Shown one piece after another: positions 759 through 1,346 of a DNA stretch of 30,781 nt. Location: the IMG/VR virus record IMGVR_UViG_3300043399_000684, positions 1-30,781 of that record; one strand, given 5' to 3'. Under the pieces are notes generated by a model. The model was not told where the DNA came from. It saw only the letters and a program-made list of their open reading frames with translations, and did not search any database. Numbering within the stretch: position 1 is the stretch's first letter; every line of letters begins with the position of its first letter. Source of the stretch: a virus. A program made the position numbers and the translations under genes.

Positions 759-787
759 ATTATCACTCGAGTGTGTGCCGGTGTCAA
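759..787 (-). promoter_or_regulatory. strong leftward early promoter (PL-like)
   Basis: Read on the minus strand, TTGACA (plus bases 782-787), a 17-base spacer, then GATAAT (759-764). This is a near-perfect sigma70 promoter, with expected start near 752, about 43 bases before the ATG at 709. An operator palindrome (764-773) overlaps the spacer end and first base of the -10, and a second (788-797) abuts the -35, so a bound repressor should block polymerase directly. Confidence 0.85.
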
Positions 788-829: not shown

Positions 830-851
830 AAAAAAATCCCGCCGAAGCGGG
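830..851 (-). terminator. Rho-independent terminator of the repressor-remnant transcript
   Basis: On the minus strand CCCGC-TTCG-GCGGG (plus 838-851), followed by A and seven Ts (830-836). The 5-bp GC stem, stable TTCG tetraloop and T tract are typical. It lies 22 bases after the stop at 873 and closes a short minus-strand unit of about 230 nt that carries the repressor-like remnant and the CRISPR-repeat-like element. Confidence 0.85.
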
Positions 852-872
852 TCTGATGCTGGGCTGCGGTCG

Positions 873-1052
873 CTACAGCGCGTGCCTTATGCGCCCAATG
901 TCGCCGCCAGAGCGCCCAGCGCAGTCTCTGGGCCTATCCCCGCTCGCGCGGGGGAACCTGTTCCTTGTGACCTTGGCAAGGCGCGCACGTTGCTCCTGTG
1001 TCAGGTCCGCCGCTTCACGTAGTCTGAGCAGGCGTTGGCCTTTAGTCTCCAT
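873..1052 (-). pseudogene. remnant of a cI-type HTH repressor gene (59 codons)
   Basis: A 59-codon frame from ATG 1052 to the stop at 873. The first 30 residues (RLLRLREAADLTQEQ then RLAKVTR) look like the first helices of an HTH_3/XRE domain, and the end (DIGRIRHAL) resembles the last helix. The recognition-helix region is replaced by the residues read from a CRISPR-repeat-like DNA element (RFPRASGDRP). A full phage repressor of this type is usually 200 or more residues, with a C-terminal dimerisation part that is absent here. Position and direction, divergent from the Cro-like gene with operators between them, are exactly those of cI. A weak promoter candidate is TTGTCA-17-TGTTGT (plus 1068-1096). 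It could alternatively be a working HTH-only mini-protein, or just the leader of a small RNA. Confidence 0.5.
930..958 (-). CRISPR. solitary type I-E CRISPR-repeat-like unit (candidate RNA anti-CRISPR)
   Basis: On the minus strand a 29-base element reads GGTTCCCC, C, GCGC, G, AGCGGGGATA, GGCCC. Compared with the classical I-E repeat (GAGTTCCCC-GCGC-C-AGCGGGGATA-AACCG) it matches in the GTTCCCC block, GCGC and the whole AGCGGGGATA block; the differences are one extra C, the loop base and parts of the 8-base handle. The stem GCGGGG/CCCCGC (948-953 with 938-943) and the ATA start of the 5' handle are preserved. I find no second copy nearby, so it is not an array. Lone repeats of this kind in phages are known as solitary repeat units, some acting as RNA anti-CRISPRs (Racrs). 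It lies in a short transcription unit with its own terminator at 830-851, in crRNA sense. Confidence 0.6.
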
Positions 1053-1066
1053 TCTGGCTATTCCAT

Positions 1067-1113
1067 CACAACAGTGAAGCACTTTGGTGTTGACAAGTGG
1101 AAGCACTACAGTG
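1067..1113. promoter_or_regulatory. right operator cluster (OR-like), three sites
   Basis: Three related 10-base sites between the divergent remnant and the Cro-like gene: CACAACAGTG (1067-1076), CACTTTGGTG (1080-1089) and CACTACAGTG (1104-1113). The last two are 24 bases apart centre to centre, exactly as the two left operators. The site at 1104-1113 overlaps the -10 of the rightward promoter, and the site at 1067-1076 overlaps the weak -10 candidate of the leftward repressor promoter, mirroring lambda OR1/OR3 logic. The consensus from both regions is CACTNNAGTG. Confidence 0.75.
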
Positions 1114-1118
1114 ATAAT
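1090..1118 (+). promoter_or_regulatory. strong rightward early promoter (PR-like), likely leaderless
   Basis: TTGACA (1090-1095), a 17-base spacer, GATAAT (1113-1118). The expected transcription start, 7 bases after the -10, coincides with the A of the ATG at 1125, so the Cro-like mRNA should be leaderless. The last 11 bases (AGTGATAATTC) repeat the arrangement of the leftward promoter, where an operator also ends at the first G of GATAAT. Confidence 0.85.
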
Positions 1119-1124
1119 TCAGTG

Positions 1125-1346
1125 ATGAAAGCCTTAGACCGAGCCATTGAGATTGCCGGTGGCCTTGGCAAGCTTGCCGACGCCATTGGTGAGGGCCAGT
1201 CCACAGTAAGCAACTGGCGCGTGCGTGGCACGGTCCCCAGCGCCAAAAAATGCGTGGCTATCGAGCGGGCTACAGGCGTGAGCCGCCGTGAGTTTTACCC
1301 CGACTCGTGGCAAGAAATCTGGCCCGAGCTAGCGGGCGCTGCCTGA
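1125..1346 (+). CDS. Cro/YdaS-type helix-turn-helix regulator (73 aa)
   Basis: A small DNA-binding protein of 73 residues. Residues 1-45 fit the YdaS/Cro-type HTH: an N-terminal helix (MKALDRAIEIAGG), then LGKLADAIG-EGQSTVSNWRVRG, where STVSNWR is the recognition helix, followed by the VPSAKKCVAIERATGVSRREFYPD tail usual in this family. An in-frame ATG at 1035 is unlikely because it lies upstream of the promoter. There is no ribosome-binding site before 1125, and the promoter places the transcript start on the ATG itself. It probably binds the CACTNNAGTG operators flanking it and at 764-797, turning down both early promoters as Cro does. Confidence 0.85.
   Translation: MKALDRAIEIAGGLGKLADAIGEGQSTVSNWRVRGTVPSAKKCVAIERATGVSRREFYPDSWQEIWPELAGAA

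Follow-up and report, generated by a model that had tools for sequence, protein, structure and literature searches.

A solitary type I-E CRISPR repeat in the immunity region of a phage as a candidate RNA anti-CRISPR

The viral contig analyzed here (30,781 bases in full length, hereafter the window) carries a single, isolated copy of a type I-E CRISPR repeat in its immunity region. We consider it probable that this element is a type I-E RNA anti-CRISPR (Racr), a decoy that would tie up Cas6e and Cas7e. This interpretation is based on identity to the repeat of bacterial arrays over all 29 positions, the solitude of the element, its location in a phage genome, the terminator that follows it, the occurrence of sister repeats in unrelated phages, and the precedent of the RacrIE elements.

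Phage genome and relatives

The window encodes phage genes for a terminase, a portal protein, a major capsid protein, an endolysin, a prim-pol primase, a Dda-like helicase, RusA and a Cro-like YdaS regulator. Ten proteins from the left end and ten other ORFs were scanned, and none showed a Cas family. A second contig (L005) is from the same phage, with 99.99% identity over 17.8 kb (two mismatches) and an identical element. DNA searches with the region and with the whole genome found no match among named phages, and a DNA search with the 34-nt element region found none among phages and plasmids. No close prophage was found in the 401 Hydrogenophaga-family genomes, five of which have terminase matches at E<=1e-100 (the best at 61%). 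One genome that contains the exact repeat (G005) has a terminase gene 55% identical to that of the phage. Close to the right end of the contig (29724-30146, minus strand) is an insertion-sequence remnant that encodes the C-terminal part of a transposase of the ISL3 family (phrog_5749, E=3e-32) and for which the closest DNA is from Dyella and Xanthomonas plasmids (74%).

The repeat element

The element comprises the following features:

930-958, minus strand: solitary 29-nt type I-E CRISPR repeat unit, GGTTCCCCCGCGCGAGCGGGGATAGGCCC; 29/29 with Burkholderiales arrays
938-953, minus strand: repeat stem-loop, CCCCGC-GCGA-GCGGGG; RNA fold of the 29-mer, -16.5 kcal/mol
930-937, minus strand: 8-nt handle, AUAGGCCC, predicted to stay on the downstream product; letters identical to the host-array handle

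The original prediction placed a repeat-like element with a 6-bp stem on the minus strand at 958-930, and this is where we find it. The six base pairs, CCCCGC/GCGGGG, enclose a GCGA loop, and both the stem and the Cas6 site appear, from their letters, to be intact. The Cas6e cut is predicted after base 938, a position that we take from what is generally understood of type I-E systems.

The same prediction took the element for an imperfect E. coli-like repeat whose stem flank had gained a C. This description was mistaken. GGTTCCCCCGCGCGAGCGGGGATAGGCCC is the repeat of arrays with a 61-bp period in Hydrogenophaga sp. NFH-34, Rhodoferax UBA6134, and Comamonadaceae and Burkholderiales MAGs. All 29 letters are shared, and the identity of the phage version extends to the loop CGA. 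Both the ATAGGCCC handle and the run of five C's belong to this repeat by nature, and a 6-bp stem plus that C is the normal form of the Burkholderiales 5-C lineage. Comparison with I-E repeats of candidate host groups, proposed as a check for a match better than chance, thus gave a perfect one.

As a null for the repeat match we used 200 third-order Markov copies of the window, in which the best repeat match was 18-21/29. The number of exact matches expected by chance is ~4e-12 per window per repeat, or ~2e-8 per window if the number of repeats is assumed to be 5,000. Across the 401 Hydrogenophaga-family genomes, the exact 28-mer is present in one, solely as an array (71 copies; the reversed control gave 0), and non-array copies number zero. 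Given the 29/29 identity, the chance figures and the scan of 401 genomes, we conclude that the element was genuinely copied from a CRISPR repeat. An Rfam scan identified no family.

In the stretch retrieved for Hydrogenophaga sp. NFH-34, the array has 62 exact copies of the repeat and adjoins genes for cas3 (HD domain), cse2, cas7e (CT1975) and cas1, and is thus of subtype I-E. A scan of one genome per species located the repeat lineage in 62 stretches from Burkholderiales, Rhodocyclaceae, Chromatiales and others. The repeat serves the immunity of some freshwater and soil bacteria. The Burkholderiales I-E arrays and the phage have an identical 29-nt repeat, but the arrays consist of many repeats with 32-nt spacers and cas genes (as seen for NFH-34), whereas the phage has a single repeat and lacks the other components.

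The element is single, as had been predicted. No full or partial second repeat was found nearby; the best other match is 16/29 within 600-1400 and 20/29 elsewhere in the window. With 100% identity over 29 nt, no other repeat within ~100 bp, and a location in a viral contig with no Cas family among the proteins scanned, the element has several of the properties of a solitary repeat unit (SRU). No likeness to the leaders, spacers or flanks of host arrays was identified beyond terminator-like stretches. With up to 3 mismatches allowed, the 32 bases that follow the handle have no match in eight genomes, most of which contain the exact repeat. No PAM-proximal seed match extends beyond 8 positions in the window or around the NFH-34 array and its cas genes. 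Together, the solitude of the element, the lack of array-like flanks and the unmatched 32 bases speak against a mini-array or a guide.

We also collected 1,802 repeat-spacer units and scored about half of them against the phage by full-length identity. The best spacer matches reached 25/32, slightly above the 23/32 of the reversed-spacer null. These were rejected, as one spacer is itself terminator-like and the other match is low-complexity and GCG-rich.

Immunity region and putative leftward transcript

The region that contains the element resembles a lambda-type immunity region, with Cro at the right and a short leftward frame in the position of cI. Its features are:

1110-1346, plus strand: Cro-like YdaS-family regulator (Pfam YdaS_toxin, E=2.6e-12; phrog_35, E=2.3e-18)
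1090-1118, plus strand: PR-like strong promoter, TTGACA-17-GATAAT, with operator-like palindromes (sigma-70-like consensus)
759-787, minus strand: PL-like strong promoter, TTGACA-17-GATAAT, downstream of the terminator, with CACTCGAGTG palindromes on both sides (sigma-70-like consensus)
873-1052, minus strand: 59-codon frame, residues 1-31 of which resemble the N-terminal part of an XRE/cI-type HTH repressor (HTH_31 and phage repressor matches)
885-929 (approximate), minus strand: out-of-frame stretch encoding GPETALGALAATLGA-stop (suggestive alignment)
1065-1093, minus strand: weak PRM-like candidate promoter, TCAACA-17-TGTGAT, with TG extension (consensus match, below the 9/12 threshold)
939-1058, minus strand: RNA from the putative start to the hairpin, ~120 nt, the candidate inhibitory part by the precedent of RacrIF1 (weak promoter-like site; PMC10651486)
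838-851, minus strand: Rho-independent terminator stem-loop, CCCGCTTCGGCGGG, then a T run at 837-830, ATTTTTTT

The PR-like and PL-like promoters have the same hexamers. CACT-N2-AGTG operator-like palindromes are present at 757-803 and 1062-1120, around both promoters; a Cro/CI switch would have such palindromes, yet the cI-like frame appears broken.

The match of the 59-codon frame to Pfam HTH_31 (E=0.0027, residues 5-33) is below the curated cut-off, and matches to phage repressors are confined to residues 1-31. Among these is a repressor from a Vibrio phage (47% identity across 30 residues, E 0.3), whose gene is divergent to a regulator gene. The HTH similarity ends exactly where the repeat starts, and the repeat overlaps the frame. 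Searches of viral and genome collections with the 59-aa frame recovered the same phage only. In direct alignment, the spacing of GPETALGALAATLGA relative to the HTH fits (shuffle p ~0.09 for the best two among six comparisons), and GPETALGALAATLGA-stop may be the remainder of that HTH domain in another frame; in the two-frame HTH profile test, X residues lower the score. We suggest that the repeat took the place of the recognition helix and put the rest out of frame, and thus that the repressor is probably dead. In the relatives found by way of the terminase, the repressor opposite Cro is full-length and unrelated.

A Rho-independent terminator that closes the minus-strand unit had also been predicted, and was confirmed (stem at 851-838, then the T run) ~80 nt past the repeat. 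The weak PRM-like candidate suggests that transcription may start near 1058, just ahead of the ATG at 1052, in the manner of lambda PRM.

Solitary repeats in other phages

When viral contigs were scanned for the 5-C form, a real array of GGTTCCCCCGCGTGCGCGGGGATAGACCC with a 61-bp period was recovered. An unrelated phage, represented by seven contigs, has a solitary GGTTCCCCCGCGCTCGCGGGGATAGGCCC between two genes (L086:5399-5427; also L087, L089-L092 and L094). GGTTCCCCCGCGCTCGCGGGGATAGGCCC is the array repeat of Chromatiaceae-type genomes and of Rhabdaerophilum.

More solitary 5-C I-E-like units are present in other phage contigs (L203:8989; L204:12905 and L206:332; L205:9954; L207:5384; L209:2182). 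Most of these lie between genes, several just upstream of a gene start, and in L205 the palindrome GACGTACTCC-AAAA-GGGAGTACGTC is directly upstream of the repeat. In another viral contig (L112:1375), small HicA/HicB-like genes flank a solitary repeat, GTTCCCCGCGCCAGCGGGGATAAACCG, that is exactly of the E. coli type. Also recovered was a contig classed as viral (L088 and L093; IMGVR_UViG_3300022181_000093), with arrays of >50 I-E 5-C repeats and 32-nt spacers; it is either a host contig or a virus with a long array.

Proposed function as an RNA anti-CRISPR

Solitary repeats that act as RNA anti-CRISPRs were published in 2023 (Camara-Wilpert et al.; PMC10651486), with a catalogue of 2,103 viral SRUs. 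These were defined by >=90% identity over >=90% of a known repeat, and confident ORFs were masked in the search (PMC10651486). By sequence, the phage element is an SRU in this sense; given the masking, an element inside a reading frame may have been passed over. RacrIE1 and RacrIE2 inhibited a Pseudomonas type I-E system (PMC10651486). For RacrIF1, the only case with a worked-out mechanism, Cas6f binds and cuts the repeat, and the upstream product holds Cas6f and a Cas7f filament without Cas5f or Cas8f. The inhibiting RNA is the portion before the Cas6 cut, beginning at the transcript start and including everything up to the hairpin, and is 70-76 nt long; a handle-only variant was inactive (PMC10651486). 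A solitary I-E repeat in a phage immunity region, within a short terminated unit, is the genomic signature by which Racr candidates are called (PMC10651486).

Like RacrIE1 and RacrIE2, the phage element is a solitary, phage-borne mimic of an I-E repeat in which the stem and the Cas6 site appear intact, and it is accompanied by neither a second repeat nor cas genes. Unlike them, it matches the Burkholderiales 5-C repeat at 29/29, and its location is not a simple gap between genes but the interior of a small frame in the cI slot.

We propose a leftward transcript from the cI slot, with a start near 1058 and an end at the terminator (851-838). In an infected cell that carries a matching I-E system, Cas6e would bind the hairpin, cut after 938 and remain on the upstream product, and Cas7e would polymerise over the ~100 nt upstream of the hairpin. 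The upstream product would have no 5' handle, and thus Cas5e and Cas8e would not be recruited. The Cas proteins would be held in dead complexes, and interference would fall.

The original prediction was of a crRNA mimic, with emphasis on the ATA handle and the spacer-like bases. A solitary I-E repeat in a terminated unit of a phage immunity region stands from that proposal. That emphasis does not, given the precedent of RacrIF1; because the handle-only variant of RacrIF1 is inactive, the ATA handle and the 32 bases are probably a by-product.

Several observations count against an RNA anti-CRISPR. No sigma-70 promoter of >=9/12 facing the element was identified on the minus strand at 1090-960, and folding of the whole transcript is not better than that of shuffles (z 0.36). 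The 59-codon frame crosses the hairpin, and its translation could melt it. The putative upstream RNA (~120 nt) is longer than that of RacrIF1. The element was not found in any diverged phage, the only other occurrence being in the 99.99% identical contig, and among the spacers scored no accepted protospacer links the phage to a bearer of the repeat.

Alternative explanations

The most direct alternative to an anti-CRISPR RNA is that the element is an inert passenger, a host repeat that recombination brought into a repressor gene, which was thereby inactivated, with no anti-CRISPR role for the repeat. The position of the repeat, exactly at the end of the HTH similarity, and the lack of a good promoter are consistent with this, and a recent capture would also account for the perfect identity. 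We nevertheless regard it as unlikely, as the 29 repeat bases are all that is shared with host arrays (neither leader nor spacer accompanies them), the unit is bounded by a terminator, and unrelated phages also have solitary sister repeats, for the most part between genes. That the element resembles a repeat by chance, through an HTH motif (SGDRP/AGIG) in GC-rich DNA together with a hairpin, has in its favor the location within a weakly HTH-like frame, where HTH codons such as GCG-GGG-ATA-GGC are similar to part of the repeat. As a full explanation this is refuted by the 29/29 identity set against an expectation of ~4e-12, and the best chance match of 21/29 and the zero non-array copies in 401 genomes also oppose it; we give it essentially no credence. 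Partial pre-existing similarity could have eased capture of the repeat.

Two further possibilities assign the repeat an active role of another kind. Host Cascade could use the downstream 32 nt (RNA starting AUAGGCCCAGAGACUG) as a single-spacer guide against rivals, host genes or the phage's own promoters. The handle and orientation are correct for this, and phage CRISPR mini-arrays, with one or two spacers that mostly target related viruses, are known in such roles (PMC11656645). As in those mini-arrays, a virus has borrowed a host repeat, but they have at least two repeats around a spacer, whereas the phage has one, and a matching target was not found in the genomes searched. With no second repeat to form a 3' hairpin, and the 32 bases unmatched in eight genomes (<=3 mismatches) and without a seed of >8 positions in the window or around the NFH-34 array and cas genes, a guide is very improbable. 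The repeat could instead serve at the DNA level, as a site for recombination or for Cas1-Cas2 integration by which the phage enters or loads a host array. Exact identity would provide 29 bp of homology, although this is short for homologous recombination as generally understood, and neither a leader nor a spacer-repeat duplication lies alongside. Integration into arrays via repeat-like sequences has been mentioned (PMC10651486), yet for this element we judge such a role highly improbable.

Significance

Racr-type decoys are already known; what is new here is a clean example in an unusual place. The uncommon features are the perfect identity and the position inside an apparently broken repressor frame. 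A more specific version of the RNA anti-CRISPR interpretation, which we hold to be rather doubtful, is that a host CRISPR repeat overwrote the recognition helix of a cI-like repressor and that the former repressor transcript, still controlled by the same PRM and operators, has become the source of an RNA anti-CRISPR. If this is true, the immunity region switched from making a repressor to disarming CRISPR.

The element adds a letter-perfect I-E candidate against the GGTTCCCCCGCG...ATAGGCCC lineage of repeats, which is spread over Burkholderiales and other Proteobacteria. It is also a warning that masking of reading frames in searches can miss such elements. If the element is active, its position in the cI slot would couple the output of anti-CRISPR RNA to the lysis-lysogeny switch.
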